From Terriglobia bacterium (GTDB taxonomy: Bacteria; Acidobacteriota; Terriglobia; Bryobacterales; Bryobacteraceae), in assembly GCA_020073305.1 (NCBI GenBank), contig JAIQFK010000008.1:186001-250000 (forward strand): a DNA stretch of 64,000 bases, given 5' to 3'. Positions 12,029-31,744 of this stretch are shown here, one piece after another. The notes beneath the pieces are model-generated. The model saw only the letters and a list, made by a program, of their open reading frames with translations, was not told the origin of the DNA and did not search any database. The position numbers and the translations under genes were made by a program. The number at the start of each line of letters is the position of its first letter. Position 1 is the first letter of the stretch.

Positions 12029-12096
12029 TTTTCATCCACGCTGTAGAGCGGTAGAATGCAACTCGGGTGGGGTATTCCAAAAAAGGAGCCGTCATC

Positions 12097-13416
12097 ATGA
12101 ATCGACGAACATTTCTCGCGGGAGCCGCGGTCGCCGCTGGCGCGGCCGGCAACACTTCCAGACTCGCGGTCGAAGGCGGAACACCGGTCCGCGAAACGCC
12201 GCTCAAAGCCGATTTCTTCGGCACCCAATACTATGGCGAAGAAGAAACGCGCGAGCTGAACGACGTGGTTCGTACCCGCCGCCCCTTCCGCTGGTATGGC
12301 CCCGGCAGCGAGCCGCCCATGAAAGTCGCAACCTTCGAGAAGGAACTGGCGCAGCGCATGAAGACGCGCTACGCGCTGGGCGTGACGTCGGGCTCGGCTG
12401 CGCTCCAAACCGCGGTCGCCGCGCTTGGCATCGGTCCCGGCGATGAAGTGATTCTTCCCGCCTGGACCTGGCATTCGTGCTACGAAGCCATCGTGCTCGC
12501 CGGCGCGCTGCCCGTGTTCGCCGAGATCGACGAGTCCTTCAACATCGACCCGAACGATATCGAAAGCAAAATCACGCCGCAGACGAAGTTGATCATGGCG
12601 GTTCATTTGCAAGGCAACCCGGCGGATCTCGATCGCGTTCTCGATATCGCCAGACGCCATCACATCCGCGTGCTGGAGGATTGCGCGCAATCCGTGGGCG
12701 CCAGCTACAAGGGCCGGCCCGTGGGCTCGCTCGCCGATATCGGCATTTACAGCCTGCAGCTCAACAAAACCATCACGTCCGGCGAGGGTGGCGCGGTGGT
12801 TACCAACGACCCGCTGCTTTTCGAGCGCGCCAGCCGCTATCACGACCTGGGCAGCCTGCGCCCCTTGCATGAAAAAGTGGTGGGCGGCGCCAAGGGCGAC
12901 ACCTTCGTGGGCGGCCAGTTCCGTATGAGCGAATTCACCGGCGGCGTGCTCGTCGCGCAGTTGCGCAAGCTCGACCGCATCGTCGCCGACGTGCGCGCCA
13001 ACGCGCGGCGCGTCTACGACGGCATCCATGACCTGCCCGGCATCAAGCTGCGCCACTTGCCCGATCCGGCGGGCGAACTCGGCTCAGCCATCTTCCTGGG
13101 TTTCGCCACCAAGGAGAAGTGCGAACATTTCCGCGCCGCCATGAAAGCCGAGAACGTTCCCGTCGATCATCCCGGCGGCTCGGCCATCCTGCCCATTCAA
13201 CCCTACATCGAGCACAAGCGCACCGTGCATCCCGCCTGGCCGTCGTTCACCTCCGAGCGCGGCCGGTCGATTCAATACGGCGCCGCCTGCTGTCCGCGAA
13301 CGCTTGATATTCTCAGCCGCTTCGCCGGCCCGTCGTTAGATCCCAAGTACACCGAGCGCGAGACAACAGACATCGTAGCGGCGATAAAGAAAGTGTATCC
13401 GCAGATTTCGGCCTAG
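12097..13416 (+). CDS. DegT/DnrJ/EryC1/StrS-type PLP aminotransferase with Tat-type leader
   Basis: A 439-residue protein from the ATG at 12097, preceded by AAAGGAG at good spacing. The N terminus is a twin-arginine type leader (MNRRTFLAGAAVAAGAA). The enzyme part has the family features: substrate loop SGSAALQTAV (98-107), Asp195 in VLEDCAQSVGA that contacts the pyridine nitrogen of PLP, and Lys224 in LNKTITSGEGG that forms the Schiff base. Family members make amino sugars or act on related keto-sugars. A folded PLP enzyme exported by Tat would be unusual but similar annotations occur in Acidobacteria and Planctomycetes. No sugar-nucleotide genes are adjacent. The gene is flanked on both sides by copies of one palindromic element. 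Confidence 0.85.
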   Translation: MNRRTFLAGAAVAAGAAGNTSRLAVEGGTPVRETPLKADFFGTQYYGEEETRELNDVVRTRRPFRWYGPGSEPPMKVATFEKELAQRMKTRYALGVTSGSAALQTAVAALGIGPGDEVILPAWTWHSCYEAIVLAGALPVFAEIDESFNIDPNDIESKITPQTKLIMAVHLQGNPADLDRVLDIARRHHIRVLEDCAQSVGASYKGRPVGSLADIGIYSLQLNKTITSGEGGAVVTNDPLLFERASRYHDLGSLRPLHEKVVGGAKGDTFVGGQFRMSEFTGGVLVAQLRKLDRIVADVRANARRVYDGIHDLPGIKLRHLPDPAGELGSAIFLGFATKEKCEHFRAAMKAENVPVDHPGGSAILPIQPYIEHKRTVHPAWPSFTSERGRSIQYGAACCPRTLDILSRFAGPSLDPKYTERETTDIVAAIKKVYPQISA

Positions 13417-14044: not shown

Positions 14045-14875
14045 TCAGCCCCCCGCCCACGCCCTCACCACAATCCACGCCTTCTCCGCCGCCGGCAACG
14101 ACACCCGTCGGGTAACATCGAACCCGCCCTCCACAATCCGCTCCAGCAGCCGCGAATAGATTCCGATCAGTGCCCGCAACGCCGGCCGGCTGCGCTTATG
14201 CACCAGGCCAACCAGAGGCTGCGACTCACGATAAAACCCACGCGCCCGTTCCGCCTCAAATGCCATCATCCGCCGGAATGCCTCCGACGGCGCCCCTGTG
14301 CATAGCTCATTCACCCCGAACCGCTCCAAATCCTCCGCCGGCAAATACACCCGCCCACGTCCCGCGTCCTCGCAGATATCCCGCAGGATATTCGTCAACT
14401 GAAACGCCACTCCGCACTTCTCCGCCAGCGGCAGGGCATCCGCCGAATCGAATCCAAACACGTGAATGGTCGAGAGCCCGACCACCGACGCCACCTGGTA
14501 GCAGTACTTGTACAGCTCCTCGAACGTCGCCACCCGTCGCGGCCTGAGGTCCGACATCACGCCCTCGATCATCTGAAAAAAGTACTCGTGCGGGATGCGG
14601 TATCGCTGAACGGTGTCGTAGAACGCGGGCCACGCCGGGTAGGAATCAAACTTGCCGCCCAGCGCATCCACCAGCGCGCAGCGCCAGCGTTCCAGCGGTT
14701 CCTGCGACGCGCCCGGCTCATCGCTCAGGTCGTCGCAATAGCGCATGAACGCGTAGATGGCGCACATGGCGTTGCGCTGCTCGCGAGGCAGCAGCACGAA
14801 AGAGTAGTAGAAATTCCTCGCGCGCCGGCGGGCGACCGCACGGCAAAAGTCGTACGATTCGCCTAGCGTCGCCAT
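14045..14875 (-). CDS. hpnD: Presqualene diphosphate synthase HpnD
   Basis: A 276-residue squalene/phytoene synthase family enzyme. It has the two Asp-rich metal motifs, YCDDLSDE (about 45-52) and the NILRDICED region with GRVYLP following, and opens SYDFCRAVARRRARNFYYSF. Length and motifs match HpnD, which joins two farnesyl diphosphates to presqualene diphosphate; HpnC then converts that to hydroxysqualene. The ATG at 14875 shares one base with the hpnC stop (TGATG), which fixes the start despite a longer open frame. Assignment as HpnD rather than HpnC or a phytoene synthase rests on the motif pattern and on being paired with HpnC in a hopanoid locus. Confidence 0.9.
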   Translation of the reverse strand: MATLGESYDFCRAVARRRARNFYYSFVLLPREQRNAMCAIYAFMRYCDDLSDEPGASQEPLERWRCALVDALGGKFDSYPAWPAFYDTVQRYRIPHEYFFQMIEGVMSDLRPRRVATFEELYKYCYQVASVVGLSTIHVFGFDSADALPLAEKCGVAFQLTNILRDICEDAGRGRVYLPAEDLERFGVNELCTGAPSEAFRRMMAFEAERARGFYRESQPLVGLVHKRSRPALRALIGIYSRLLERIVEGGFDVTRRVSLPAAEKAWIVVRAWAGG

Positions 14876-15792
14876 CACGCCGCCCGGGATAGCGCCACGC
14901 GCGCCAGCGTGCCCAGCAGCAGCCACACGCGCTCGGTTTTCGAAATCGAGGGCCGCCGCGCCAGCACATCGTAATTCTGCGCTTCGATCTTCTCCAGCAC
15001 GCGCATCCCGCCGCGGCTGAACAGCTCGATGTCCACCGCCAGCCGCCGGTCCACCATCCCGACTAGTGGCAGTCCTTCGAGGAACAACTCGCGCGCCCGC
15101 TGAACCACGTCGCGCATAGCGGCACGAAAGCCCGGCCCGGCCCGGCGCGCCGCAATGTCTTCCACCGATGACCCGTTCCGCTCCAGCACATCCAGCGGCA
15201 TGTAAACGCGATCCTTCTCCCAATCCACCGTCACATCCTGCCAGAAATTGGCAAGCTGCAGCGCGGTACAAGTCGCATCCGACAACCGTTGCCGCTCCGC
15301 ATCCGAGTAACCGCACAAATACAGCACCAGCCGACCCACGGGATTCGCCGAGCCGCGGCAATAGCCGAACAGCTCCTCCCAATTCCGGTAGCGCGTCACC
15401 GTCTGGTCCTGCACGAAGGCGCCAATCAGATCATCGAACGGCTGTTGCGGAATGGAGTACCGCTGAACGGTGCCTTGCAGGGCCACGAACACCGGGTGAG
15501 TCGCACGGCCGCCGTACATGGCCTGCAAACCCTCGCGCCACCACGCCAGCAGGCGCAGGCTCTCCGCTGTATCGCCCAGCTCGTCGCCCAAATCGTCGGC
15601 CCAGCGGCAGTAAGAGTAGACGTTATAAAAATCCTGGTGCAGGCGTTTGGGCAACAGCCAGCTCACCACGTGGAAATTTTCGTAGTGGCGCGTAGCCAGC
15701 CAGCGGGTGTAGCTCAGAGCTTCGGGAAGGGTCGGACGCGCGGCCATCGCCGCCGGATCGCGGACGAAATCCTTGGGGGCGAGCGGCACCAC
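14875..15792 (-). CDS. hpnC: Hydroxysqualene synthase HpnC
   Basis: A 305-residue member of the squalene/phytoene synthase family. The first metal motif is WADDLGDELGD and the second is NFWQDVTVDWEKDRVYMP, the HpnC-typical form. HpnC converts presqualene diphosphate made by HpnD into hydroxysqualene, which the flavoenzyme HpnE reduces to squalene. The GTG at 15792 begins 2 nt before the preceding gene's stop region (15795); an ATG at 15747 is an alternative start. Its stop overlaps hpnD by one base. hpnE is not found in this window. Confidence 0.9.
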   Translation of the reverse strand: MVPLAPKDFVRDPAAMAARPTLPEALSYTRWLATRHYENFHVVSWLLPKRLHQDFYNVYSYCRWADDLGDELGDTAESLRLLAWWREGLQAMYGGRATHPVFVALQGTVQRYSIPQQPFDDLIGAFVQDQTVTRYRNWEELFGYCRGSANPVGRLVLYLCGYSDAERQRLSDATCTALQLANFWQDVTVDWEKDRVYMPLDVLERNGSSVEDIAARRAGPGFRAAMRDVVQRARELFLEGLPLVGMVDRRLAVDIELFSRGGMRVLEKIEAQNYDVLARRPSISKTERVWLLLGTLARVALSRAA

Positions 15793-15794
15793 TC

Positions 15795-16835
15795 TTACGG
15801 GAAGATGGCCGTCTTCAAGTGGCCGTTGTGGCTCATCAGATGGCGCATCACTTCCAGCAGGTTGGTGAGCGGCTCCTCACGATTCACGAAATCGCGCGCG
15901 CTGATATCGCCGTTGCAGATGATGTCGAGCGCTTTGCGAATGTGCGACGGCGTGTGATGGAAGCTGGCTTTGCAGGTGATCTCGGAATAGTGGAGCAGGG
16001 AAGTGTCCAGGCTCACCTTGCTCTCATTGGGGCAGCCGCCGAAGAAATTGACCGTCCCGCCGCGCCGCACCATGTCCACCGCCCAATGCCAAGTCTCGGG
16101 ATTGCCGACGGCTTCAATGGCCACATCCACTCCGCGGCCTTTGGTCAGCCTGCGAACCTGCTCGGCCGGACGCGATACGTGTTCGGTCGAGATCAGCTCG
16201 TCGGCCCCGGCGGCCTGTGCACGCTCAAGCTGTGTCTTTCTGCGTCCAATCGCGATGACGCGCGCGCCGTATAGCTTGGCCAGCCGCACAAACATCAGCC
16301 CGATGGGTCCCAGGCCGATGATTCCCAGCGTGTCGCCGGCGCGAATTCCCGTTTCCTCGAGACCGCGCAGCACGCACGCCAGCGGTTCTACCAGCGCGGC
16401 GTCCTGATAGGACACTTCCGCCGGGATTTCATAAGTGTTACGTTCCACGATGCGCGACGGAATCCGAATGTACTCCGCATACGCGCCGTTGTTAAACAGC
16501 AAGTCCTCGCAAAGGTTTTCAAGGCCGCGGCGGCAGAAGTAACACTCGTTGCAGGGGGCCGAATTGGCCGCGACCACACGCTGGCCGGCCGCGAATGCGG
16601 TTACGTCAGCCCCTACTCTCACAACATCGCCGGCCAGTTCGTGGCCGAATACGGCTGGGGGAACGATCATGCGGGCGTGGTATCCGCGCCGAAAAACTTT
16701 GACATCCGTGCCGCACGTCAAAGCAACTTTGACGCGAACCAGAATGTCGCCTTTCTCGATATTCGGAACAGCCACGGGCTCTACCTGTAAATGTTCTTTG
16801 CCGTAGAGCACGGCAGCCATCATTTCGGTTTTCAC
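15795..16835 (-). CDS. Zinc-type medium-chain dehydrogenase (polyol/threonine dehydrogenase-like), hopanoid operon
   Basis: A 346-residue medium-chain dehydrogenase. Catalytic zinc ligands are suggested by CGTDVKVF and GHELAGDVV; the structural zinc lobe is CNECYFCRRGLENLC; the NAD(P) site is IIGLGPIGLM followed by Arg-rich GRRKTQ, which may favour NADP. Such enzymes interconvert polyols and aldoses or ketoses. The GTG start overlaps the stop of the next upstream MDR gene (GTGA), and hpnC starts 2 nt after its end, so it is firmly embedded in the hopanoid operon. Function there is not established; reduction of ribosylhopane is a candidate (see findings). ATG at 16823 is an alternative start. 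Confidence 0.88.
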   Translation of the reverse strand: MKTEMMAAVLYGKEHLQVEPVAVPNIEKGDILVRVKVALTCGTDVKVFRRGYHARMIVPPAVFGHELAGDVVRVGADVTAFAAGQRVVAANSAPCNECYFCRRGLENLCEDLLFNNGAYAEYIRIPSRIVERNTYEIPAEVSYQDAALVEPLACVLRGLEETGIRAGDTLGIIGLGPIGLMFVRLAKLYGARVIAIGRRKTQLERAQAAGADELISTEHVSRPAEQVRRLTKGRGVDVAIEAVGNPETWHWAVDMVRRGGTVNFFGGCPNESKVSLDTSLLHYSEITCKASFHHTPSHIRKALDIICNGDISARDFVNREEPLTNLLEVMRHLMSHNGHLKTAIFP

Positions 16836-17929
16836 TCAGTCCACCTCTGTGGCTTAAGAATAATTTTCAATGATTGGGAGTCAGGATGCAACGCTAAATC
16901 AAAGGCTGAACTTATCTTAGCCAGGGGAAGCTGGTGGGAAACAAGCAGATCCACCGGCAGCTCGCCGGAGAACACCAGCTCCGCGGATTGTTTCTGTAAA
17001 TCGACCGAAGCACTATAGGAGCCAAAGATGATGCGCTCGCCGACGCAAATTGAGGCGCCGGAAAGATCGATGCGCTCGGCATCGGAAGTTTGCGCGAACA
17101 GCAGAATACGCGCGCCCGCGCGTGACCAGCGCACCGCATTTTCCACAATGCCTTTGACCGATGCGGCCACAATCACCAGATCGGCGCCGCGGCCCTCGGT
17201 GAGCGATCCGACTGCTCCGGCTACATCGCCCGAGTGCGGATCCAACGACTGCTCCGCGCCGCAGCGCAGCGAAAGCTCACGGCGGCTGGGAATCATGTCG
17301 GTCGTCACCACGCGCGCGCCCGCGCGGCGTGCCAGCATGGTCATCAGCAGCCCGATCGGCCCCTGGCCCAGCACCAGCGCCACTTCGCCCGCTTCCGGCG
17401 CGCATTGCACTACCGCCTTCAGGCACGTGTTCACCGGCTCGACAAACGACGCGCGCTCGAACGAAATCCCGCTGGGAATCTTTTCCACGCCACGCTCGAC
17501 GATCCAGTCCATCACCCGAACGTATTGTGAGAATCCGCCGCCCGCCGGTTCGAAACCCGCCGTCACGCCAACTTTCTTGTACACGGGACACTGCGCGTAG
17601 AGCTTCTTGCGGCAATAGAAGCACGCGCCGCACGGGATGTGATGGAACACCACCACGCGGTCGCCGGCCTTGAAGTTGCGCACGCCGCGGCCCACACGCG
17701 CCACCACGCCGGCCGTCTCGTGTCCGAATATTCGCGGCGGAGCCAGCAGGTTGTACTCGATCTTCTTGAGATCCGTGTGGCAGACCCCGCAGGCTTCCAC
17801 GCGCACCAGTAACTCGCCCATACCGATTTCTGGCGTAGGTACCTGTTCCACGGCAACCACGCTGTCGCCCTTATAGACGGCGGCGTGCATGGTCGCGGGA
17901 ATCGCCATGTCAAAATCGGCAGTCGGCAA
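16832..17929 (-). CDS. Zinc-type medium-chain alcohol dehydrogenase, directly after hpnG
   Basis: A 365-residue medium-chain dehydrogenase with CGVCHTDLKK and GHETAGVV (catalytic zinc), CGACFYCRKKLYAQC (structural zinc) and LVLGQGPIGLLM (cofactor site; one glycine position is Gln). The TTG at 17929 is chosen because AGGAG sits 6 nt upstream; it makes the gene overlap hpnG by 20 nt. An ATG at 17908 would avoid the overlap but lacks a ribosome site. It overlaps the following MDR gene by 4 nt. The two MDRs are clearly paralogues but not close, so they may catalyse successive or opposite steps, or form a heteromer. Confidence 0.88.
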   Translation of the reverse strand: MPTADFDMAIPATMHAAVYKGDSVVAVEQVPTPEIGMGELLVRVEACGVCHTDLKKIEYNLLAPPRIFGHETAGVVARVGRGVRNFKAGDRVVVFHHIPCGACFYCRKKLYAQCPVYKKVGVTAGFEPAGGGFSQYVRVMDWIVERGVEKIPSGISFERASFVEPVNTCLKAVVQCAPEAGEVALVLGQGPIGLLMTMLARRAGARVVTTDMIPSRRELSLRCGAEQSLDPHSGDVAGAVGSLTEGRGADLVIVAASVKGIVENAVRWSRAGARILLFAQTSDAERIDLSGASICVGERIIFGSYSASVDLQKQSAELVFSGELPVDLLVSHQLPLAKISSAFDLALHPDSQSLKIILKPQRWTE

Positions 17930-18617
17930 GAAATTCTCCTAATGTGCGGGCGGCCATGTAGGATCGGCGCCCGAGGCGCAGTAATTCAGGTAACAAACTC
18001 AAGGGCCGGCGGCAGGAAGCCGCAATTAACTGCATTGTAGCGAATCTGCCGTCGGAGCGCAGTGCCGCGTTGAAATCGAACGAAAAACTCTCGTGGGCCA
18101 GATCCGTAACAGACCGGACACAGTAGAAGGGCAAGTCGAACTCGGCGGCCTTGGCGGCCACTCCCGCAGCCTCCATTTCCACGGCTGACGCGCCGCGCCT
18201 GCGGAGCTGAGCCTTCTCTGTAGCGGTTTGAGCCACTCGATCGATGGACGCGAGCACGCCGGTATGGTAAGCCCGGGCCGTGCGAGGCTGGGCCGCGGCA
18301 AATTCACCGGCGCGCGCCTGTACCCGCTCAGCGACAAAAATATCGCCCACCTGCATATCGTTTTCGAGTGCGCCGCAAAATCCCATGCTGCAAATCAAAT
18401 CCAAACGGACCGCCGCGTGCGCCGCTTCAACTGCCTGCGCCGCTCTGGCCGCGCCCGCTCCATTGGCCACCAGCCAGACTTCCTGGCCGTTCATCTCCGC
18501 CGATCGCGCCCAGTGCACCGGCCATCCCACCACCTTTACGTTCCGGCAAAATTTCAAAACTCCGCTGAACTCGCGGGCTTCGGCGCCGGCTAGCAATAGC
18601 CGTTGGCTCGAAACCAT
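17910..18617 (-). CDS. hpnG: HpnG, adenosylhopane nucleoside phosphorylase
   Basis: A 235-residue protein of the nucleoside phosphorylase (PNP/UDP) superfamily. Landmarks are the glycine loop VANGAGAARAAQ, CSMGFCGAL, the catalytic-type SAVEMEAAGVAAKA and VRSVTDLAHE. In hopanoid producers HpnG removes adenine from adenosylhopane made by HpnH, giving a phosphoribosyl or ribosyl hopane. The ATG start lies inside hpnA (28-nt overlap) and the end overlaps the following dehydrogenase. Position between hpnA and the MDR pair supports the assignment over a general MTA/SAH nucleosidase. Confidence 0.88.
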   Translation of the reverse strand: MVSSQRLLLAGAEAREFSGVLKFCRNVKVVGWPVHWARSAEMNGQEVWLVANGAGAARAAQAVEAAHAAVRLDLICSMGFCGALENDMQVGDIFVAERVQARAGEFAAAQPRTARAYHTGVLASIDRVAQTATEKAQLRRRGASAVEMEAAGVAAKAAEFDLPFYCVRSVTDLAHESFSFDFNAALRSDGRFATMQLIAASCRRPLSLLPELLRLGRRSYMAARTLGEFLADCRF

Positions 18618-19564
18618 TCCACCGCGCGCTCGAGCGCCCGATCCACCGGCCCGGGTTTGAAACCCAGTTCGCGCGCCGCCTTATCATGCGAAACGAACAT
18701 CTTCTTCTTCGCCATCCGCACCGCATCGAGCGGCGCCTTCGGCGGATGTCCGGTCACGCGAGCCCAACCCGTCGTTACCACTCCCGCGGCGTAAGCCACG
18801 GCGTACGGAAGCTTCACTCGCGGCGCTGACTTGCCGGTGATTCGCGCCAGCTTCCCAAGAATCTCCTCCAGGGTCAGATTCTCCGAGCCCACCACATAGC
18901 GTTCGCCTGGCCTGCCGCGGTCCGACGCCAGCAGGTGCGCTTCCGCCGTGTCCCGCACATCCACCAGATTCAAGCCTGTTTCGATAAACGCCGGCATCGC
19001 ATCTGTCAAAAAATCCAGCACGATTTTTCCCGTGGGCGTTGGCTTAACATCGTGGTCTCCAACCGGCGCTGTAGGGTTCACCACCACAACCGGAAACCCG
19101 GACGCCGCAAATTCCAGCGCTACCCGCTCGGCCAGGAACTTCGAGCGTTTATAGGCGCCCGACATTTCTTCGAGCGTGACCGGCACGCTCTCATCACCCA
19201 CTCCGCCGGGCGGCACCCCGATGCAGCCCACCGTGCTGGTATAAACCACCCGCTCGACGCCATGTCGCCGGGCCGCTTCCAGCACATTGCGCGTGCCCTC
19301 CACATTCGAGCGGTACAACTCGTTCGAATCCCTTGACCAGAGCCTGTAATCGGCGGCGACGTGAAATACCAGCCCGCATCCTGCTACCGCTCGTTCCAGC
19401 GATTCCGCATCCCTTAGATCACCCGTTACCGGCTCAACGTCCAATTCCCGCAGCTTGCTCGTTGGCCGAACCAGCGCCCGGACTTTGTGACCGCGCTCCG
19501 TAAGCAACCGCGCGACGTGCCAGCCAATAAAACCCGAAGCCCCGGTGACCAGCGTTGGCTTCAT
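18590..19564 (-). CDS. hpnA: HpnA, hopanoid-associated sugar epimerase
   Basis: A 324-residue extended short-chain dehydrogenase with the N-terminal GASGFIG cofactor motif, the active-site triad (Ser/Thr in YTSTVGCIG and the Tyr-Lys of GAYKRSK) and the PTAPVGDHDVKPTPTG block characteristic of HpnA. HpnA is conserved in hopanoid loci, but its reaction is not firmly known; modification of the side chain or a sugar headgroup is the usual proposal. It overlaps hpnG by 28 nt and follows hpnH after about 80 nt, the largest gap in the operon, which holds an imperfect inverted repeat. Confidence 0.92.
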   Translation of the reverse strand: MKPTLVTGASGFIGWHVARLLTERGHKVRALVRPTSKLRELDVEPVTGDLRDAESLERAVAGCGLVFHVAADYRLWSRDSNELYRSNVEGTRNVLEAARRHGVERVVYTSTVGCIGVPPGGVGDESVPVTLEEMSGAYKRSKFLAERVALEFAASGFPVVVVNPTAPVGDHDVKPTPTGKIVLDFLTDAMPAFIETGLNLVDVRDTAEAHLLASDRGRPGERYVVGSENLTLEEILGKLARITGKSAPRVKLPYAVAYAAGVVTTGWARVTGHPPKAPLDAVRMAKKKMFVSHDKAARELGFKPGPVDRALERAVEWFRANGYC

Positions 19565-19645: not shown

Positions 19646-20758
19646 TCACCTCAACGCCCACGTCAGCATCTTAAAGCTGTCGGCTAATTTTGAATTAATC
19701 CCCAAGGCGGCCGACGGTTCGTACCCGCAGTGCACCATGCAGTGCTCGCAGCGCGGATCGTTCCCGTGGCCGTAATTCTCCCACGGCGTCTCTGTCATTA
19801 ATGCTTCGAATGTCTTGTAATGCCCGTCCGTGATGAGATAGCAGGGGCCTTTCCAGCCCTTGATGTTGTACGTTGGGTTACCCCAGGCGGTGCATGGCAG
19901 ATCGCGGTCGCCCTTCAGAAACTCCAGAAACATGGGCGTCTGATTCAGCCGGAACCGCTTAAACAGCGTGTCGACATCCCGGAACTTCTCATGGATATCG
20001 TCCCGCGTCATAAAGATCTCGCGATCGTTCACCGCGGAGTATCCGTAGGCCGGGGAAAGCTGGTGGCCGTCGACGTCAAACTGCTGGAGATACTCGAACA
20101 GCGCTTCGATCTCTTTCATGTCGGTTTCTTTGTAGACCGTGGTGTTGGTGCACACCATGAAACCGGCTTTCTTAGCCGCCTTGATTCCTTCGATGGCCTC
20201 GCGGAAGACGCCTTCCTTTTCCACGCAGATGTCGTGCGTCTTTTCGAGACCGTCCAGATGCACGTTGAAAAAGAAGCGGCGGTCTGGTTTGAACTCATGG
20301 AGACGCTTCACGATGAACATGCCGTTGGTGCACAGGTAAATGTTCCGGTTGCGCTCCAGGATGCCCGCCACCAGCTCGCCGATCTGCGGGTACATCATGG
20401 GCTCGCCCCCGCATATCGATACCATGGGCGCGCCGCATTCATCCACCGCCGCCAGGCATTCTTCCAGCGGCAGCCGCTCGGTGATGGTCGCCTCGTACTC
20501 GCGAATCCGCCCGCATCCGGTGCACGTGAGATTGCAGGCGTGCAGCGGCTCCAGCATGAGCACGATCGGGAAACGCTTGTTGATCATGGGGTGAGGCTCC
20601 GGGCGCCCACCCTCGGCCACGCGCATGGGAAGGATACGGAAAGGATTCGACGCGTCCGGCTTCGGCGTTGCTGTTTTCTGCCACTCCGGCTTCGGCCGCA
20701 TCTTGTTCTTAAAGATGTACTGGGCCATGCCGGCCGTCATGGAAAGCGGGAATCTCAT
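19646..20758 (-). CDS. hpnH: HpnH, radical SAM adenosylhopene transferase
   Basis: A 370-residue radical SAM protein with the CxxxCxxC cluster motif in HACNLTCTGCGR, the GGEPMMYP segment that binds SAM, and the long C-terminal part with further cysteines (DPRCEHCMVHCG) typical of HpnH. HpnH couples a 5'-deoxyadenosyl radical to diploptene, creating the first C5-extended hopanoid, adenosylhopane. The N terminus (MRFPLSMTAGMAQYIFKNK) matches the family start. The ATG overlaps the squalene-hopene cyclase stop by 4 nt (ATGA), so substrate production and elongation are translationally coupled. Confidence 0.95.
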   Translation of the reverse strand: MRFPLSMTAGMAQYIFKNKMRPKPEWQKTATPKPDASNPFRILPMRVAEGGRPEPHPMINKRFPIVLMLEPLHACNLTCTGCGRIREYEATITERLPLEECLAAVDECGAPMVSICGGEPMMYPQIGELVAGILERNRNIYLCTNGMFIVKRLHEFKPDRRFFFNVHLDGLEKTHDICVEKEGVFREAIEGIKAAKKAGFMVCTNTTVYKETDMKEIEALFEYLQQFDVDGHQLSPAYGYSAVNDREIFMTRDDIHEKFRDVDTLFKRFRLNQTPMFLEFLKGDRDLPCTAWGNPTYNIKGWKGPCYLITDGHYKTFEALMTETPWENYGHGNDPRCEHCMVHCGYEPSAALGINSKLADSFKMLTWALR

Positions 20759-22692
20759 GAACGCTCCGTCAATCGAGAACTCTTCAGTTTTCCGAATTCA
20801 GATAGTGCCATCAGCGGGAAGTAAAGCCTGTACAGATGGTACGTGAGATAGAAAACTTTCGGGAACCCGGTGCCCGTGGAGAGTTCTTCATTCCACGACC
20901 CGTCCGGCCGCTGTGTCTCCAGCAGATATTCAATGCCTTGATGCAGGCTGTGGCTGGTCGTATCGCCGCCGGCCAGTAAGCCGAGGATCGCCCATGCGGT
21001 TTGCGAAGGAGTGCTTCGGGCGGGCGTGAATCCGTGGTTATCGTAACTGGCGCAGCTTTCGCCCCAACCGCCGTCCGCATTTTGGATGGAACGCAGCCAC
21101 TCGCCGGCGCGCAGCACGTGGGCTTCACGGTCGTCTTCTCCGGCTGCGCGTAGTCCGCGCAACGCGAAACACGTGCCGTAGATGTAGGCCACGCCCCAGC
21201 GTCCGTACCAGCTTCCATCCGGCTCCTGCGTCCGCACCAGATGATCGACGGCGCGACGGACCGCTGGATGCCCGCGATCGTAACCAAACGCACCCAATGA
21301 CTCGAGTACTCGCCCCGTGATGTCGGCGCACGTCGGATCGAGCATGGCGTTGTGATCGGCGAACGGCACGTGGCTCAGGAACTGCCAGTTGTTGTCTTTG
21401 TCGAATGCCGCCCAACCGCCGTCGCTTGACTGCATTTCAAGGATCCACGCCAGCGCGCGCTGCTCGGTCGCGCGCTGGGCTGCCGGATCGCTGGCATGCG
21501 CGCGGCTGAGGGCCAGCAGAATCATGGCCGTGTCATCGATATCGGGATAGAAATCGTTGTTGAACTCGAAAGCCCATCCCGATGGCGTCGTGTTGGGCGA
21601 CTTGACCGACCAGTCGCCCGCGCGCCGGATCTCTTTCTGCAGCACCCAGTTTGCCGCGCGTGACAGCGCCTGCGGCGGTGCTACACCCGATTCGCCGAGT
21701 GCGTACATGGCGATGCCGGTGTCCCAGATGGGTGAAAAACAGGGCTCGAAGAACAGCGGCCGCCTTCCGTCATCCACCATCAAATGCTGGAACTGCCGGA
21801 TCGCTTCCAGCCGCGCCGGATGATTCTCGGGATACCCCAGGACATCCAGCGCCATGATGGCATACATCATCGGCGGGTAAATGGCGCCCAATCCGTCGGA
21901 GTGCTCCAGATGTTCGAGCATCCACTTCTCCGCGGAGCGAAGCGCTCTCTGGCGAATGCTTCGCGGGCCCCGGCGTTCCCACACTTTCAAAAAGCGGTCG
22001 ATTCGCAGGAACAGATTCCGCCACGTGAACCACTTCGTGTCGCCCTGGAACCCGCGCGGCACGCCCGGAAGGAACAATTCTTCGAGCGAGAATCCCGCCG
22101 GCACCGGACGGCGCGGATGATGAGCGTGGACGATCGAGAGTGAGATCACAATCGCCCGCGTCCAGGATGACATCTGATAGATGAACTTGCCCAGCAGCAT
22201 CAGCTCCGGCGGAATCGTGGGGCAGTGCTCGCGGGGGTAGAGATCGAACAGGCTCAGATTGATCTTGACGTAGCTGTTGGCGGCCTGCAGCCCGCCGCGC
22301 GCCAGTATGCATTCACGCGCCCGTGCCATGCGGGAATCGTCCGGCGAGAGGCCCGACAGCTTCAGGGCGAAGTACGCCTTCACCGTCGCGCTGATTTCCG
22401 TCGGACCCTGCTGGTAAATATTGAATCCGCCGTCCGCGAGTTGCCTCGACAAAATCGATTGCGCCGCCTTCTGGACCAGCGGCATGGTGGGTGGGTTCCA
22501 TACCCCGTCCACCGGCGGATGCATCCAGAGCTGCAAGAGAATGTAATCCGATTCGAGAGTCGTGTCGGCGGTCAGCTCCCCGCACCAATAGCCGCGCGCG
22601 TCTTGTCGCGCCACCAGATTCGCCGCGGCCCGTTGCACGGCTGCGGGAATGGCTCGAACCAGACTTTCTGTGATCGCTAATGTCGGAGTCAT
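20755..22692 (-). CDS. shc: Squalene-hopene cyclase
   Basis: A 645-residue triterpene cyclase of normal length. The catalytic DxDD motif is in FYPDIDDTAM, and several QW repeats are visible (for example QNADGGWGESC, QSSDGGWAAFD, QRPDGSWNE). It converts squalene into hopene/diploptene at the membrane. The gene overlaps ispH upstream and hpnH downstream by 4 nt each. Isoprenoid precursor supply (ispH) and cyclisation are thus in one transcript. Confidence 0.96.
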   Translation of the reverse strand: MTPTLAITESLVRAIPAAVQRAAANLVARQDARGYWCGELTADTTLESDYILLQLWMHPPVDGVWNPPTMPLVQKAAQSILSRQLADGGFNIYQQGPTEISATVKAYFALKLSGLSPDDSRMARARECILARGGLQAANSYVKINLSLFDLYPREHCPTIPPELMLLGKFIYQMSSWTRAIVISLSIVHAHHPRRPVPAGFSLEELFLPGVPRGFQGDTKWFTWRNLFLRIDRFLKVWERRGPRSIRQRALRSAEKWMLEHLEHSDGLGAIYPPMMYAIMALDVLGYPENHPARLEAIRQFQHLMVDDGRRPLFFEPCFSPIWDTGIAMYALGESGVAPPQALSRAANWVLQKEIRRAGDWSVKSPNTTPSGWAFEFNNDFYPDIDDTAMILLALSRAHASDPAAQRATEQRALAWILEMQSSDGGWAAFDKDNNWQFLSHVPFADHNAMLDPTCADITGRVLESLGAFGYDRGHPAVRRAVDHLVRTQEPDGSWYGRWGVAYIYGTCFALRGLRAAGEDDREAHVLRAGEWLRSIQNADGGWGESCASYDNHGFTPARSTPSQTAWAILGLLAGGDTTSHSLHQGIEYLLETQRPDGSWNEELSTGTGFPKVFYLTYHLYRLYFPLMALSEFGKLKSSRLTERS

Positions 22693-23684
22693 CTTGTAGA
22701 AATTGTCGTCAGAGCAGAAGCCGCATGCCCTAATTCGCCAGGCAGCGAAAATCGTACATCTTCCTCCACCAGTTCCACTTCCTCCAACCGATGGAAGCCG
22801 TGGTCTTTCAACGACGCAATCAACTGATCTACCAGGTGTTCCGGAGCCGATGCCCCGGCCGTAATCGCCACATTCCGCACATCTTCCAGCCAGCCCTGGT
22901 TTACATCGCCCCAGTCGTTGACCAGAAACGAGCGCACGCCGGTGTTCTCACCAACTTCCACCAGCCGCTTCGAATTCGAGCTGTTCTGCGATCCCACTAC
23001 CAGCAGCAGATCGCAGAACGCCGCCACCGCCTTCACCGCCATCTGGCGGTTTTCGGTGGCGTAGCAGATATCCTGAGCGGGCGGGCCCTGAATCAACGGG
23101 AACCGTTCTTTGAGACGGATGACGATATCGCGCGTTTCATCCAGACTCAGCGTGGTTTGTGTGAGATAGCAGACTCGCGCCGGATCGGGCACCGCCAGTT
23201 TGTCGACATCCGCAACCGTGGAAACCAGGAACGTTCGATCGGGCACTTCGCCCAGCGTGCCGATCACTTCGTCGTGGTCCTTATGGCCAATCAGGACAAT
23301 GGTATAGCCTTCCCGAGCGAACTTGACCGCCTCCAGGTGAACCTTGGTCACCAAAGGGCAGGTGGCGTCGATGACTTGTAGTTGCCTCACTTTGGCTTCC
23401 CGCCTGACTTCCGGAGAAACTCCATGCGCGCTGAAGATCGCCCTCGCCCCCAGCGGCACTTCCTGCAGTTCCTCGACGAAAATGGCGCCAGCCTCCCGCA
23501 GTTCGTCCACTACGTGCTTGTTATGCACGATTTCCTTGCGCACATAAACCGGAGGGCCATACAAGTCCAGCGCGATTTTCACCACGTCGATCGCCCGCAC
23601 GACGCCAGCGCAAAAGCCGCGGGGCCTCAACAGGTAGATCTTCTTGTCCGCGCCGTTATTGGCGGCGATGGGCTTGAGCGGCAT
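22689..23684 (-). CDS. ispH: 4-hydroxy-3-methylbut-2-enyl diphosphate reductase IspH
   Basis: A 331-residue LytB/IspH protein. The three cluster cysteines are in PRGFCAGV, DATCPLVTKVH and DICYATENRQ; the substrate His is in HKDHDEVIGT and the catalytic Glu region is TQTTLS(L)DET and NSSNSKRLVEV. It carries out the last step of the MEP pathway, making IPP and DMAPP with a 4Fe-4S cluster. It is the first gene of the hopanoid operon, linking precursor supply to hopanoids. A TATAAT box lies about 28 nt upstream of the ATG. Confidence 0.96.
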   Translation of the reverse strand: MPLKPIAANNGADKKIYLLRPRGFCAGVVRAIDVVKIALDLYGPPVYVRKEIVHNKHVVDELREAGAIFVEELQEVPLGARAIFSAHGVSPEVRREAKVRQLQVIDATCPLVTKVHLEAVKFAREGYTIVLIGHKDHDEVIGTLGEVPDRTFLVSTVADVDKLAVPDPARVCYLTQTTLSLDETRDIVIRLKERFPLIQGPPAQDICYATENRQMAVKAVAAFCDLLLVVGSQNSSNSKRLVEVGENTGVRSFLVNDWGDVNQGWLEDVRNVAITAGASAPEHLVDQLIASLKDHGFHRLEEVELVEEDVRFSLPGELGHAASALTTISTR

Positions 23685-26238: not shown

Positions 26239-27375
26239 CTAACCGAGGCAAAACAGTTTGCCGTCTTGGGAGCCGATGACGAGTTTGCCTTGGGCGATGG
26301 CTGGGGAGGCGGACAAGGGGCCGCCGGCGTTGAACTCGGAGAGCTTCTTTCCGGTTGCGAGATCGAGGACGTACAGGCGGCCGTCGTTCGAGCCGACGTA
26401 GGCGCGGCCGGCGGAAATAGCCGGCGAGCAATCGACGCGCGCGTTGGTGGTGAAGGTCCAGAGCGCCTTGCCGGTGCGGGCATTCAGGCAGTGAATGATT
26501 TTGTCGCGGCCGCCGAGTACGACTTTCCCGTCGGCGACGGCGGGCGACGAATAAAACGGGAAGTGCCGCTCGGGATGCTCATATCGCCAGAGAACGCGGC
26601 GGGTGGCGAGATTGAGGCCCAGCACTTCGTTGTTGAAATTCCCGAAGTATGCGGCTTTTCCGGCGATCGCGGGCGAAGCGGCGTTGTAGCCACCCGACGA
26701 GATGTGAAACATTTCTTTGCCGTCGGTGATGCGAATCGCGCGGAACATTTCATCGCATCCGGCGATGAAGGCCAAGCCTTCGGAAACCGCGGGTGTGCAG
26801 TGCACGTAGCTGCTGGTGGTGAATTTCCAATGCACCGTCCCGGTGCGCGCCGCCAGGCAGTAGAGATTGCCGTCGTACGAGCCCACAAGCAGCCGGTCAC
26901 CCACGACCACGGGCGATGATTTGATTTCAGCGCCGGTCTTGAAGGTCCAGAGCTTCTTTCCGTCGGCCGCGTTCACGGCATGCAGCACGCCCGGAAGATC
27001 GCCGACGTAAACCATGCCGTCGTGCACGGCGGGCGAAGACTCTTCGATGCCTTCCTCGACGTGATATTTCCAGCGCGGTTTGCCCGTCTCCAATTCGAGA
27101 GAGATGAGATCGGCCGTCATCGAGCCGACGTAGACTGCGCCATCTGCAATGGCGGCGGAGGACTCGATGGAATCACCGGCCTCGTAGGTCCACAGCATCT
27201 TGAGAGTTGCGGGAAGGGAAGAAGGCGCGACGCCGGTCAACTGGGGGTTGCCGCGGAATTGCGGCCAGGAATCAGGCGTGGGAGCGGCGGCGCGGAGGCA
27301 CGCAGCGGCGGGGAGGGTGAAGAGGAGATCTCGGCGCGTCAGGGAAGAAAAACGGGGACAGGCAGCACCGTCCAC
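26239..27375 (-). CDS. Exported PQQ-like beta-propeller protein; start lies inside a repeat element
   Basis: Propeller protein of about 378 residues. After a twin-arginine leader ([20 protein letters not shown]) the mature part starts [14 protein letters not shown] and holds seven regular blades ([56 protein letters not shown]). No enzyme motif is visible. There is no ATG near the leader: the nearest usable start is the GTG at 27375, inside the left arm of element D, or a non-standard CTG at 27342. The repeat may have replaced the original start region. It is followed by the KdgD-like gene on the same strand. Confidence 0.8.
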
Positions 27376-27496
27376 GCGCCGACGTACAGGGCTGCGTGAT
27401 TCGCAGGATGATGCGGCTTGGGACGGTGAAGCCAGTCCCCGTTTTTCGCATTGTCGGATGATGCGGCTTGGGACGGTGAAGCCAGTCCCCGTTTTT
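27348..27496. repeat. REP-like palindromic element D with duplicated right arm
   Basis: Left arm 27348-27373 (core AACGGGGACAGGCAGCACCG) pairs with 27421-27446 at 23 of 26 positions. The right side is then repeated: a 41-nt segment at 27406-27446 recurs exactly at 27456-27496, a 50-nt period. It sits between two propeller genes and ends 4 nt before the stop codon of the upstream-transcribed one (27501). Confidence 0.8.
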
Positions 27497-27500
27497 AGGC

Positions 27501-28889
27501 TCACTTCGTTTCGGCGATAGCGAAGAGCTGGTTGCGGTTGCCGATGAACAGCGTGCCGTGGGCGGGCACCGGGGTCATATAGACGGCGCTGCCCATGTTG
27601 TTTGTGCTGATCACCTTCTTTTCCTTGCTGGCTTCGAGAACGGCTACGTCGCCGTCTTCATCGGCGAGATAGACTTTGCCGTCGATGATCATGGGCGAAC
27701 TCCAGATGGCGGCCAGCATGTCGTGCACCCAATACGGCTTTCCGGTGTTCACATCCAGGCAGTGAAGAAAACCGCTGAAATCGGAGTAGAACAGCAGGCC
27801 GTTGTAAATGGCACCGGTCGAAATGGAGCGGCGGATCTTGTCGTAATGCCAGAGGCGGCCGGATTCGGTGATGTCGCCGCGTTTGGTGGCGTCGATGGCA
27901 TAAAGATGGCCCACGCCCTCGCCGTGTTCAGGGTCCTGGCCGTTGGCGATGAAAACCTTGTTCTCGTAGATCACCGGAGTGGAAATGACTTCGTTGCGCG
28001 TCTTGGGCCACACGGAATCCTTGGGATTTAAATCGAACTCCCAGAGTTTTTTGCCGCTCTCGGCTTCGTAGCCGCGTACCCAGCCATCGCCCTGGCCGAT
28101 CACCACTTGCACCGCGTCGCCTATCTTGCCGACGGCGGCGGACGACCATTGCCCGTGCAGGATGCGGTCGCCGACCGAATTGTCCTCCCAAACCAGTTTG
28201 CCGGTGTTCTTGTTGACGGCGATGACCGCGGGCGCGCGCGGCGACGGAATATGGACGTGGCTTTCGTCCTGACCGTTGGCGGTGCTGACGTAAATCAGAT
28301 TGCCGTAGGACACGGGCGACGAGTTCGACATGTTGTGCGGCTCAGAGCCGACCTCTTCCATCATGTCGAACTTCCAGATGAGCTTGGCGTGCTTGTTGCC
28401 GTCGCCGTGCGTGTCGAGACAGCGGATCTCGCAGCGATTGGTGACGTAGTAGAGGCGGTCCCCCTCGACGAGCGGTGAAGAGCAGACGCCCTGAAACGGC
28501 CAATCGTTGGCGCGTCCGGATGGCAGCTTATCGTTGGTGTCCTGCCAGAGGAACTGGCCGTCCGATTCGCGGAAGGCCATGAGCACGCCCTTGTCGCCTT
28601 TGACCGCGGGGTCCCTCGTGCTCTCGTTGTTGGTACCGACGTAGACCTGGCCGCCCGCGACCACGGGGTTGCCGTAACTCTGCGAACCGAGTTCGGCCAT
28701 CCATTTCACGTTCTTCTTGGTTTTCACATCCCAGGTGGTGGGGATGCTCTTCATGCCGGAGACCATGTTTCGGTCGGCGGTGCCGCCCCACATGGGCCAG
28801 TCGCCTCCGGCGTTGGGCTCAGAAGCCCACACGAGGAACAGCGTTGCCGGGATTGCGGCCAGAGCTCCGGCGATCATTTTTTTGCTCAT
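27501..28889 (-). CDS. Exported PQQ-like beta-propeller protein
   Basis: A 462-residue protein with signal peptide ([18 protein letters not shown]) and mature start [18 protein letters not shown]. Blade motifs include [34 protein letters not shown] and a final [12 protein letters not shown]. It belongs to the same family as its neighbours but is larger than the gene at 26239. Its ATG is preceded by the 28889 gene's stop with a one-base overlap (TGATG), so the two are translated together. A catalytic PQQ site is not apparent; a periplasmic scaffold, sensor or sugar-binding role is open. Confidence 0.85.
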
Positions 28890-31102
28890 CAGTTTGCCGT
28901 CACTTTCAGGTTGTCATAAAACACGCCGTTGGTGGCATCGCCGAACAGGCCGGGACTGCCTTGACGGTTGGGAATCGGGTCTACGCGGTCGATCAGCCAG
29001 TTGGCCGGTTCGCTCTCCGCCGTAGGCCATGCCTTTCCGCGAATGCGCGTTTTGCCGTCGGCGGTATTCTCAACGCGCAGCTTCAGGTGATACCAGGTAT
29101 CGGGCTTCCAGGAAAACGGCACGGCCACGCGGCGGGCAACTTCCGGCTGCCAGGAATTCATCTCGAGCTGTTGGTTGTTCCCGAATAGCACCAGAGTGTA
29201 TCGCTGCGCGGTGACGCCGGCGTCGCCCATCTGGCGGCGTTTTTCCGGAGCGCGCACATCGGCCTCTACGGTGTAGTTCGACCAGTTGGTCGGGCCCAGA
29301 AAGAGGCGCATGCGCTTGAACAGAGTCTCGGTGGGAGACTTGGCGAGAACCTTCTGGCCGTCGAGCTCGGCGACTTTGTACTGGCCAGCGACGGTGCCGA
29401 CCCAATGCGGAGGGACGGCGCCCACGGCGTAGGAATCAAACGTCTCGTTCCACGGAAGCGGTGGAACGACGCGCACGCGCGCCTCGCCGGTGATGGAGCC
29501 GAAGGTTGCCTTCACCAGACCTGCCTGGCCCGCCGGGTCCGCAGCGGCGGTGAACTTGCCGTCTTCAACCGAACCTTTCAGACCGGCGAGGGACCACGCG
29601 GCTTTCTCCTCGCGCAGAAATGTCCCATGTTCATCGAAGAGGCGCGCGCGAAAGTTCGCGGTTTGGCCGGAAGTCAGAATGACTTCTGTTGGCACCACCT
29701 GAACCCATGCCGGCTGCCCGGGCGGCGGTGGCGGCTCTTCCGCGGCGGCGGTTTGCGGGACCGGGTGCGACTTCTTGCCGATGGCGTAGAGCGTGTCGCT
29801 CGAGACAAAATAAACGCGACCGCGTGAAATCGCCGCGGAGGCCACAATCGGCGCAGGAACTCTTTCGTTAACGATGCCGGTCTCGTTGATGGGCATTTCC
29901 ACATCGCTCAGCACCTCGCAGCGATCTGAGTGAGGCCTGAGGATATAGAATTTCCCGGTCTCGGTTCCGACGTAGATTTTGCCGTCGCCGAAAACGGGTG
30001 AAGCTTTTTGCACCGTTCCCAGGTTCTGCTTCCAGAGCTGGCGCCCGGTGACGACGTCAAACGCATAAAGGTTGGAGCCGTTGTCCACCTGCAAATAGCG
30101 GTCGCCATCAACGACCCCGGAAGAGAATTCGCCGATGAAACCCTTGACGGTCCACTTGGCCTGGTTCATGGGGATGGTGCCCTTCGCCGTGCCGTCAATG
30201 GCGGCGAGCATTCCCATTTCGTTGCCTTCGAGATTTTCCTGGCCGTGAGAGGCGAGCACCGTGGTTCCGTTCAATACCGGCGCGGTATTGATGGCGCGCT
30301 TGCTCATCAGAAAGTGCCAGACGGGTTCGCCGGTCGAGACTTTCACCGCATGGACGCCGCCGTCGCCGAGGCCGGTAATCAGCAGGCGCATTCCGTTGAT
30401 GCGCGTAATGATGGGCTGCGAGTAATCCGTATCGAAGGGCCTGCCGCCGGGCGTGCTGACCCACACGGTTTCACCCGTCCGCTTGTCGAAGGCCATCAGG
30501 CGAATGGAGCGGTTGGATTGCGTGCCCCAGGTGGAGCTGGCGGCTTTGACGATGACGAGATCGCCATCGACGACGGGGGATGTCGTGCGGCCGCCATGGG
30601 TGGTGAACAGATCGAATTCTTCGTCGAGCGAGCGTTCCCAGATGGGTTTGCCGTCTTTAGTGAGCGCGAGCAGCGTTCCATTCACGCCGAAGACGTAGAC
30701 GTTGCCGGTTTCGAGATCGGCCGCGGGCGACGCCCAGCCCACGCGGTGCGCGGGCACGTCGCTCTGGAAAATATTGAAGCGATATTCCCAGAGCAGCTTG
30801 CCGGTATCGGCGTTGAAACACAAGACGCGCTCCTGCTCGGTCTCACCTTTACCGGCGGTGTTCTGAAGGTAGAGGCGGTCGCCGACAACGATGGGGGCGG
30901 AGCGGCCGCCGTAAGGCGCTTTCCACGCCAGGTTCTGCCCGGAGAGCGACCATTTTTCGGGCAGGTTCTTTTCGCGGGAGACACCGTCGCGGTTGGGACC
31001 GCGCCAGTCGGGCCAGTCGCCGCCCGAAGGAGGAATGGAAGCGGCGAAGAGAACAGGAACAAAAAGTAACAGCGAGAGGCGGTGCACAACGATAGCGTTC
31101 AT
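28889..31102 (-). CDS. Large exported propeller protein with Ig-like and lectin-like C-terminal domains
   Basis: About 737 residues from the ATG at 31102 (MNAIVVHRLSLLLFVPVLFAA, a signal peptide); the longer open frame upstream has no coding character. Residues 30-430 form a PQQ-like propeller opening with GGDWPDWRGPNRDGVSRE. A proline-rich linker (EEPPPPPGQP) leads to a bacterial Ig-like segment (VVPTEVILTSGQTANFRARL), then a C-terminal beta-sandwich (ETFDSYAVGAVPPHW to FYDNLKVTAN) resembling the concanavalin-like folds of DUF1080 or LamG proteins. The build suggests binding of an extracellular polysaccharide or surface ligand. It heads the three-propeller operon. Confidence 0.82.
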   Translation of the reverse strand: MNAIVVHRLSLLLFVPVLFAASIPPSGGDWPDWRGPNRDGVSREKNLPEKWSLSGQNLAWKAPYGGRSAPIVVGDRLYLQNTAGKGETEQERVLCFNADTGKLLWEYRFNIFQSDVPAHRVGWASPAADLETGNVYVFGVNGTLLALTKDGKPIWERSLDEEFDLFTTHGGRTTSPVVDGDLVIVKAASSTWGTQSNRSIRLMAFDKRTGETVWVSTPGGRPFDTDYSQPIITRINGMRLLITGLGDGGVHAVKVSTGEPVWHFLMSKRAINTAPVLNGTTVLASHGQENLEGNEMGMLAAIDGTAKGTIPMNQAKWTVKGFIGEFSSGVVDGDRYLQVDNGSNLYAFDVVTGRQLWKQNLGTVQKASPVFGDGKIYVGTETGKFYILRPHSDRCEVLSDVEMPINETGIVNERVPAPIVASAAISRGRVYFVSSDTLYAIGKKSHPVPQTAAAEEPPPPPGQPAWVQVVPTEVILTSGQTANFRARLFDEHGTFLREEKAAWSLAGLKGSVEDGKFTAAADPAGQAGLVKATFGSITGEARVRVVPPLPWNETFDSYAVGAVPPHWVGTVAGQYKVAELDGQKVLAKSPTETLFKRMRLFLGPTNWSNYTVEADVRAPEKRRQMGDAGVTAQRYTLVLFGNNQQLEMNSWQPEVARRVAVPFSWKPDTWYHLKLRVENTADGKTRIRGKAWPTAESEPANWLIDRVDPIPNRQGSPGLFGDATNGVFYDNLKVTAN

Positions 31103-31216
31103 GGCGTTACTCTCTCGAAAGGCATGGCGGGTGAACCCAAGATATAATCGCTGGCGTTTCGAGTCAAGGAGCGGGTAAGGGTTGGACGGGCGGGAGGGGG
31201 TGGAGGTCACGCGGAG

Positions 31217-31255
31217 GGCCGACGAGGGCGTCGGCCTGCGGACCAGGGGGTCCGC
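31217..31255. repeat. Twin hairpins with identical AGGG loops
   Basis: GGCCGACG-AGGG-CGTCGGCC (31217-31236; 8-bp stem) is followed 1 nt later by GCGGACC-AGGG-GGTCCGC (31238-31255; 7-bp stem). The second stem equals part of the hairpin at 4608. They lie in the 183-nt gap between the divergent propeller gene (31102) and the PEBP gene (31286). Nothing else is recognised there beyond two TATAATCGC stretches (31143 and 31266). Confidence 0.6.
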
Positions 31256-31285
31256 CCCACCGGGATATAATCGCGCTGGTGGTTT

Positions 31286-31744
31286 ATGGCGTTCAAGCTG
31301 ATTATTCCTGCGTTCAATGAGGGCGCGGTCATTCCCAAGCTGCACACGTGTGAAGGCGCCGATCTTTCGCCGTCGGTCGAGTGGTCGGGCGAGCCCGCGG
31401 AGACCGCCAGTTACACGCTGATCGTCGACGATCCGGATGCGCCGGTGGGTACGTGGAATCACTGGCTGCTGTTTGACATTCCGGCGCCGGTTCACTCGCT
31501 GGCGCAAGGTTACAAGCCGGGCCAGTTGGGCGTGAACGGCAGCAACGATTTCGGCAAGCAGGGGTACGGCGGACCTTGCCCGCCGAAAGGCCATGGGCCG
31601 CACCGGTATTTCTTTAAGCTGTATGCGGTGAAGGCGGCTTCGCTTGGGCTGAAGGCGGGCGCCAAGCGAGCGGAGATTGACCGGGCGCTGCGCGGGCACG
31701 TGCTGGGAGAGGTGCAGTACATGGGGAGGTACGAGAGGAAGTAG
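31286..31744 (+). CDS. YbhB/YbcL-type PEBP (Raf kinase inhibitor-like) protein
   Basis: A 152-residue protein matching the bacterial phosphatidylethanolamine-binding protein family over its full length: LYTLIVDDPDAPVGTWNHWL carries the DPDAP and nearby His residues of the ligand site, GGPCPPKGHGPHRYFFKLYA is the second signature. No signal peptide is seen, so it is cytoplasmic like YbhB. The molecular role of bacterial members is unknown. A TATAAT lies only about 15 nt upstream of the ATG, within reach of a very short leader. It converges with the enoyl-CoA hydratase gene, 6 nt apart. Confidence 0.9.
   Translation: MAFKLIIPAFNEGAVIPKLHTCEGADLSPSVEWSGEPAETASYTLIVDDPDAPVGTWNHWLLFDIPAPVHSLAQGYKPGQLGVNGSNDFGKQGYGGPCPPKGHGPHRYFFKLYAVKAASLGLKAGAKRAEIDRALRGHVLGEVQYMGRYERK

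Follow-up and report, generated by a model that had tools for sequence, protein, structure and literature searches.

The closest described counterparts of the genes considered here are ug1 and ug2, which were named in the 2017 survey of acidobacterial hopanoid genes by Sinninghe Damste et al. and left without a function (PMC5462960). In that survey cluster C runs hpnA-hpnG-ug1 and cluster A runs ug2-hpnC-hpnD-hpnE, ug2 often being annotated as a Zn-binding alcohol dehydrogenase of ~350 aa. We analysed 64,000 nucleotides of a Terriglobia bacterium (contig JAIQFK010000008.1, positions 186,001 to 250,000; this whole stretch is the window), in which two genes for zinc-type medium-chain dehydrogenases (MDRs), here MDR1 and MDR2, lie between hpnG and hpnC in one operon. 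MDR1 follows hpnG as ug1 does and MDR2 precedes hpnC as ug2 does, and the positions of both genes are already known under those names, the match being one of position. Since the ug1 and ug2 subclusters meet in the window, an "MDR pair after hpnG", as a first-pass annotation of this DNA had it, is their junction. The passages of the survey that deal with ug1 and ug2 make no mention of ug1 as an MDR, of paralogy or of cofactor motifs.

According to a 2025 study, the enzyme that converts ribosylhopane to bacteriohopanetetrol (BHT) "has not yet been established" (PMC12583986), and the gap that the first-pass annotation proposed to fill with these genes is therefore real. The 2017 survey proposes HpnA as a possible enzyme for the ribosylhopane step (PMC5462960), and we recognised no other assignment in the literature searched, with subscription papers mostly outside it. 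From conserved motifs and gene neighbourhoods we regard MDR1 and MDR2 as a lineage-specific redox pair of NAD and NADP type, whose site of action is probably the C5 side chain and which is neither solely devoted to hopanoids nor a general BHT reductase, a reading to which we give a probability of about 0.42. The pair would be an old, co-conserved set of zinc polyol-dehydrogenase-like enzymes whose genes became part of the hopanoid operon in a single acidobacterial class and in a few families related to it. HpnG is expected to expose a C5 sugar tail, on which MDR1 would act next in a redox step; MDR2 would add a carbonyl reduction driven by NADPH, and the conversion of ribosylhopane to BHT in this lineage may be part of it.

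Both proteins have the GroES-like N-terminal domain (ADH_N; 89 bits in MDR1, 87.9 bits in MDR2), the Rossmann domain ADH_zinc_N (60.7 and 95.3 bits, all far above the Pfam cut-offs) and the zinc ligands that place them in the zinc-type MDR superfamily. The catalytic Cys, His, Glu and Glu and the four structural-zinc Cys are present in 42/42 core MDR1 sequences (one unrelated MDR of locus L070 being left out) and in 39/39 core MDR2 sequences. At the end of the beta-2 strand the residue is acidic in all 42 core MDR1 sequences (41 Asp, 1 Glu) and non-acidic in 38 of the 39 core MDR2 sequences (the exception is at L248), where it is followed by Arg or Lys in 35/39 and then by Arg in 33/39. An acidic residue at this place marks the NAD-type, and a non-acidic residue with Arg or Lys the NADP-type. 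MDR1 is thus predicted to use NAD(H) and MDR2 NADP(H). Since these motifs are opposite and conserved within the pair, oxidation and reduction in one route are suggested, not duplicate reductases. That the two are redundant copies of one enzyme is ruled out by their separate clades together with the opposite motifs.

The nearest solved sequence for both MDRs is 4ej6, a putative dehydrogenase, followed by 2dq4, a threonine dehydrogenase, for MDR1 and by 1e3j, the NADP(H)-dependent ketose reductase of the silverleaf whitefly, for MDR2. Like MDR2, 1e3j has a non-acidic residue and then Arg at the end of beta-2 (the two are 28% identical in structural alignment, 1e3j being the second-best solved match), but its substrates are ketoses, whereas ribosylhopane would be an aldose. 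The structure models (mean pLDDT 86.5 for MDR1 and 86.3 for MDR2) retrieved generic zinc MDRs with Foldseek, which left the substrate undecided. The polyol/threonine dehydrogenase-like group of zinc MDRs shares with MDR1 and MDR2 both Pfam domains, the catalytic Cys-His-Glu-Glu and the four structural Cys, with query-normalised TM-scores of 0.75-0.88 at 20-31% identity among the 50 matches listed per model. Against the NCBIfam equivalogs for named polyol, threonine and inosose dehydrogenases the best scores were 158.9 bits (MDR1) and 177.7 bits (MDR2), under the cut-off of 450. The genome of the window (6.98 Mb in 51 contigs) has 21 matches to PF00107, 20 of them over the cut-off; since MDRs are so common there, the special point is the position of these two in the operon.

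Conservation of the arrangement is clearest within the order (genomes from the genus, family and order of the window, its own included; our own handles are used below for genomes, G, loci, L, families, f, and genera, g). MDR1 was found in 41/41 and MDR2 in 40/41 of these genomes, and the 40 with both have them in tandem on a single contig; in the remaining genome, G025, MDR1 lies at a contig end. Since the tandem recurs in 40/41 genomes, the arrangement is not a matter of chance. Gene order around the MDRs was determined in 20 of the other 40 genomes, and upstream of MDR1 lies hpnG in 18 and an hpnG remnant in two. In G028, G034, G035 and G040 (family f3) hpnG-MDR1-MDR2 forms an isolated trio, none of the remaining reference hpn genes being found in ~19 kb in any of the four. 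HpnH scored over the cut-off in 35/41 genomes and was absent from G011 (which has SHC, HpnA and HpnG), G018 (62% complete), G036, G037, G038 and G040 (93% complete; HpnA and HpnG found, no SHC match). The window's family was also seen to hold two kinds of HpnH, one scoring 513-548 bits against the family model in nine genomes and one of about 402-434 bits in the others with a full-length protein, the window included; in the MDR regions examined in the nine (L009-L017) the high-scoring hpnH lies outside the hpnG cluster.

The link between MDR1 and hpnG persists where the cluster is broken up. Core MDR1 is present in 24/25 sampled genomes of family f4, and in the 17 of these in which the cluster is split, MDR1 lies behind hpnG, within about 160 nt, in every case. 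Among 46 loci the first of the sought genes upstream of MDR1 is hpnG in 35, hpnA in seven, ispH in two (genus g29, with an hpnG remnant between) and none in two (family f41). The distance between hpnG and MDR1 is ~600 nt in one of the 35 (L057), and in G170 hpnG-MDR1 lies ~50 kb from hpnA and hpnH.

A sample of 247 genomes of the phylum yielded core MDR1 (over 330 bits) in 38 genomes, all of which also have core MDR2; the latter was found in 39 genomes, and HpnH in 62. MDR1 occurs with HpnH in 35 genomes and without it in three (G153, which has SHC and HpnA; G251, 84% complete; and G261), and 27 genomes have HpnH without core MDR1. The association of core MDR1 with HpnH has a Fisher p of 4e-22, the co-occurrences not being independent because they come largely from one clade. 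An HpnG-like match (E <= 1e-15) was found in 59/62 HpnH genomes (not in G047, G228 and G236), and in 26 of the 27 without core MDR1. Other nucleosidases may account for the weakest of these matches; that at L067 in family f30 scores 86 bits as an MTA/SAH nucleosidase versus 72 bits as HpnG. Some of the 27 genomes (e.g. in f49 and f34) carry distant MDR1/MDR2-like genes, several of them in tandem, which are sister to or near the core clades and unlinked to hpn genes in the stretches examined; these may do the same job.

Outside the phylum the best 80 of the 584 loci from a scan with acidobacterial HpnH were used together with five plasmid-borne hpnH loci, three of them on unannotated records, and by title these 85 divide into 21 acidobacterial loci, one from an unspecified bacterium and 63 from other phyla. 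The MDR1-MDR2 pair was found beside hpnH in 0/63 of the loci from other phyla, within the stretches scanned and without a check on BHT production by these strains. At least one further hpn gene (hpnA, shc or hpnG) is carried by 33 of the 63. The MDR of L129 (titled Lyngbya) is unrelated, at 25% identity, and annotated Streptomyces and Roseomonas hopanoid clusters showed no MDR pair in the stretch shown. Among the acidobacterial-titled loci the pair is present in 3/21 (L149, L154 and L163). The comparison with other phyla is not a clean one, since hpnH in the other 18 is often apart from the cluster and many stretches are short; the absence is one beside hpnH and does not extend to whole genomes. 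The first-pass annotation had named absence of the pair from other producers as a refutation of its idea, and with that qualification this is largely what is seen, in the 63 loci and, for core MDR1, in 27 of the 62 HpnH genomes. On this distribution, within the stretches scanned, we reject the pair as a universal ribosylhopane reductase; that it is a general one is unlikely, and a lineage-specific one is possible.

Several observations weigh against the proposed action on the hopanoid side chain. In 17/17 split f4 genomes MDR2 is ahead of hpnC and hpnD and away from hpnG, and hpnE was detected behind hpnC-hpnD in 15/16 of these loci (not in L281; the HpnE query took in all but L064). All seven f30 loci (L065-L068, L247-L249) have hpnA upstream of MDR1, and no hpnG was found before MDR1 in any of them. 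Genus g29 (G036, G037 and G038; 98, 93 and 99% complete) retains ispH-MDR1-MDR2-hpnC-hpnD, with no SHC match at E <= 1e-30, no HpnH over the cut-off (2.6e-12 or weaker only) and no HpnA in the three genomes. In G261 (listed as 100% complete) the pair is preceded by WYL regulator and proline dehydrogenase genes; no SHC, HpnH, HpnA or HpnG was found in that genome, and HpnC is present elsewhere in it. The idea that the pair moves as one hpnG-bound unit is ruled out for f4 by the position of MDR2, the trio being intact in the four f3 loci.

In g29, hpnG is intact in G037 and has decayed to a remnant between ispH and MDR1 in G036 (L258 3412-3905) and G038 (L260 10690-11179). Between these two genomes 47/490 sites (9.6%) differ in the hpnG remnant, compared with 34/1080 (3.2%) in MDR1 and 22/1041 (2.1%) in MDR2, both of which lie below the remnant (p 4e-7 and 4e-10). 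The dN/dS is 0.17 for MDR1 and, on few changes, 0.5 for MDR2, for which the count of nonsynonymous changes alone (~14/24) is not significant (p 0.09); hpnC, hpnD and ispH are as constrained as the MDRs. In G036 the gene behind hpnD is hpnE, over the cut-off. It seems that g29 has lost hopanoids and retained the squalene genes. Since the constraint holds there with no SHC, HpnH or HpnA found, both MDRs are kept where ribosylhopane should not exist, and the pair is likewise retained in G261.

The retention in g29 and f41 speaks for another reading, which we consider rather unlikely: that the pair is no hopanoid enzyme and serves as a general redox module for sugars/polyols or amino acids, its genes riding in the isoprenoid operons of one clade. 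G106, a family mate of G261 in f41, has the same order of WYL regulator, proline dehydrogenase, MDR1 and MDR2 and carries its hpn cluster elsewhere, so that proline dehydrogenase precedes the pair in both f41 genomes. G172 lacks core MDR1 and has its core MDR2 divergently beside mtnB and mtnC (L073 9240-12412), and no SHC, HpnH, HpnA, HpnG or HpnC was found in its genome; related tandem pairs in other families also lie away from hpn genes. The close association with hpnG or hpnA in f1, f3, f4, f52 and f30, which holds even where the remaining cluster has moved, speaks against a module of this kind. As observations in their own right, the f41 order recurs in two genera (L070 6210-10617 and L072 5003-9261), and the mtnB and mtnC substrates of methionine salvage and ribosylhopane are all 5-substituted pentose derivatives.

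G047 has SHC and HpnH (L074 7328-10081), and HpnA, HpnG, HpnC, MDR1 and MDR2 were not found in its genome. An IS630-type transposase stretch lies ~1 kb past hpnH, near the contig end. As functional proof this joint loss is weak, since hpnG, hpnA and hpnC are among the genes not found, the transposase and the contig end are near and an assembly gap is possible.

The first-pass annotation proposed that one or both MDRs may be the missing reductase, which is partly supported and makes them sensible candidates within one lineage. Restricted to this lineage, and not orthologous to the enzyme elsewhere, a reductase from ribosylhopane to BHT is in our estimate unlikely. The accompanying statement that sorbitol-type MDRs catalyse exactly this chemistry is overstated, since enzymes of this type interconvert polyols and ketoses, not aldoses and polyols. 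The part of the proposal that stands is the adjacency of MDR1 to hpnG (17/17 split genomes and 35/46 loci) and the NADP-type motif of MDR2, with 4ej6 and 1e3j as its nearest solved sequences; the better candidate would be MDR2 by cofactor motif and MDR1 by gene linkage. The corresponding activity in Methylobacterium is said to need NADPH, for which we found no confirming paper. Against it count the retention of both genes in g29, a genus not expected to make the substrate, the NAD-type motif of MDR1, which is the gene behind hpnG, and the place of the NADP-type MDR2 with hpnC in split genomes. The step itself is still unassigned (PMC12583986), which leaves room for such an enzyme, but for SD1 and SD3 acidobacteria Rohmer degradation products were reported and not intact BHT (PMC5462960).

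A decidedly improbable alternative is that MDR1 oxidises the ribose with NAD, to a C-35 lactone or acid or to a keto intermediate, with a subsequent reduction by MDR2; the resulting side chain, special to acidobacteria, would be oxidised, epimerised or linked to a head group. The opposite cofactor motifs conserved in the tandem pair would suit such a route. Furthermore, acidobacterial bacteriohopanepolyols are hard to extract and were detected upon direct degradation of cells (PMC5462960), a method that would be blind to the difference between BHT and a C-35-oxidised form. The objections from g29 and f41 hold equally here. Its more specific form, in which MDR1 and MDR2 in series oxidise and then reduce the ribosyl side chain so that the C35 hopanoid of Terriglobia has an inverted or oxidised tail and is not plain BHT, has a marginally slimmer chance still. 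Least probable is that HpnA, the upstream sugar epimerase-like short-chain dehydrogenase/reductase (SDR), is the missing reductase instead of an MDR, for although HpnA is far more widespread than the MDRs (found at E <= 1e-80 in 60/62 HpnH genomes, all but G047 and G099, with a partial match in G254), G099 lacks it yet has SHC, HpnH and an HpnG-like match, and the survey cites evidence that Burkholderia cenocepacia can do without hpnA for BHT and that the gene is missing from Rhodopseudomonas (PMC5462960).

The operon of the window runs on the minus strand in the order ispH-shc-hpnH-hpnA-hpnG-MDR1-MDR2-hpnC-hpnD (Table 1). Six of its eight junctions overlap by 4-28 nt; at the other two, hpnH and hpnA are separated by 81 nt and MDR2 and hpnC by 2 nt. 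The placement of the two MDR genes given by the first-pass annotation was borne out to the nucleotide, with overlaps of 20 nt between hpnG and MDR1 (17910-17929) and of 4 nt between MDR1 and MDR2 (16832-16835), and the interval 15795-18617 that it assigned to them takes in hpnG as well. The TTG start of MDR1 is preceded by AGGAG with a spacer of six bases and the GTG start of MDR2 by AGAGGTGG with a spacer of five bases, and both starts are credible because of these plausible ribosome-binding sites. HpnA, HpnH, SHC, IspH and HpnC score over their NCBIfam cut-offs, and HpnD and HpnG are best matches yet under theirs. No HpnE was found within the window. L154 (titled Acidobacteriaceae) has nearly the same gene set and order, with MDR1 at 63% and MDR2 at 61% identity and hpnH apart.

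Table 1. Hopanoid operon genes in the window (positions count from its first nucleotide)
Feature	Coordinates	Strand	Description
MDR1	16832..17929	-	zinc-type medium-chain dehydrogenase, 365 aa, TTG start, NAD-type motif; position of ug1 (PMC5462960)
MDR2	15795..16835	-	zinc-type medium-chain dehydrogenase, 346 aa, GTG start, NADP-type motif; position of ug2 (PMC5462960)
hpnG	17910..18617	-	adenosylhopane nucleosidase/phosphorylase, 235 aa, ATG start; divergent, 146 bits against a cut-off of 187.1
hpnA	18590..19564	-	hopanoid-associated sugar epimerase (SDR); over cut-off
hpnH	19646..20758	-	radical SAM adenosylhopane synthase; over cut-off
shc	20755..22692	-	squalene-hopene cyclase; over cut-off
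ispH	22689..23684	-	over cut-off
hpnC	14875..15792	-	hydroxysqualene-forming synthase; over cut-off
hpnD	14045..14878	-	presqualene diphosphate synthase; 252 bits against a cut-off of 278.6; start inferred

Just past the hpn operon, on the opposite strand, lies a gene for a DegT/DnrJ/EryC1-type aminotransferase (window 12067-13416, plus strand), and upstream of the operon are three BamB/PQQ-like beta-propeller genes in a row (26239-31699, minus strand).

The question of the role of MDR1 and MDR2 now divides into two, that of MDR1 with hpnG and that of MDR2 with hpnC. Natural test cases are the acidobacteria that keep the pair after hopanoid loss, and G047, which has shc and hpnH without the remainder of the set having been found. 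Bacteriohopanepolyols count among the chief geological biomarkers, and the completion of their side chain still awaits an assigned enzyme; an inverted or oxidised C35 tail, if true, would explain why those of Terriglobia resist extraction.

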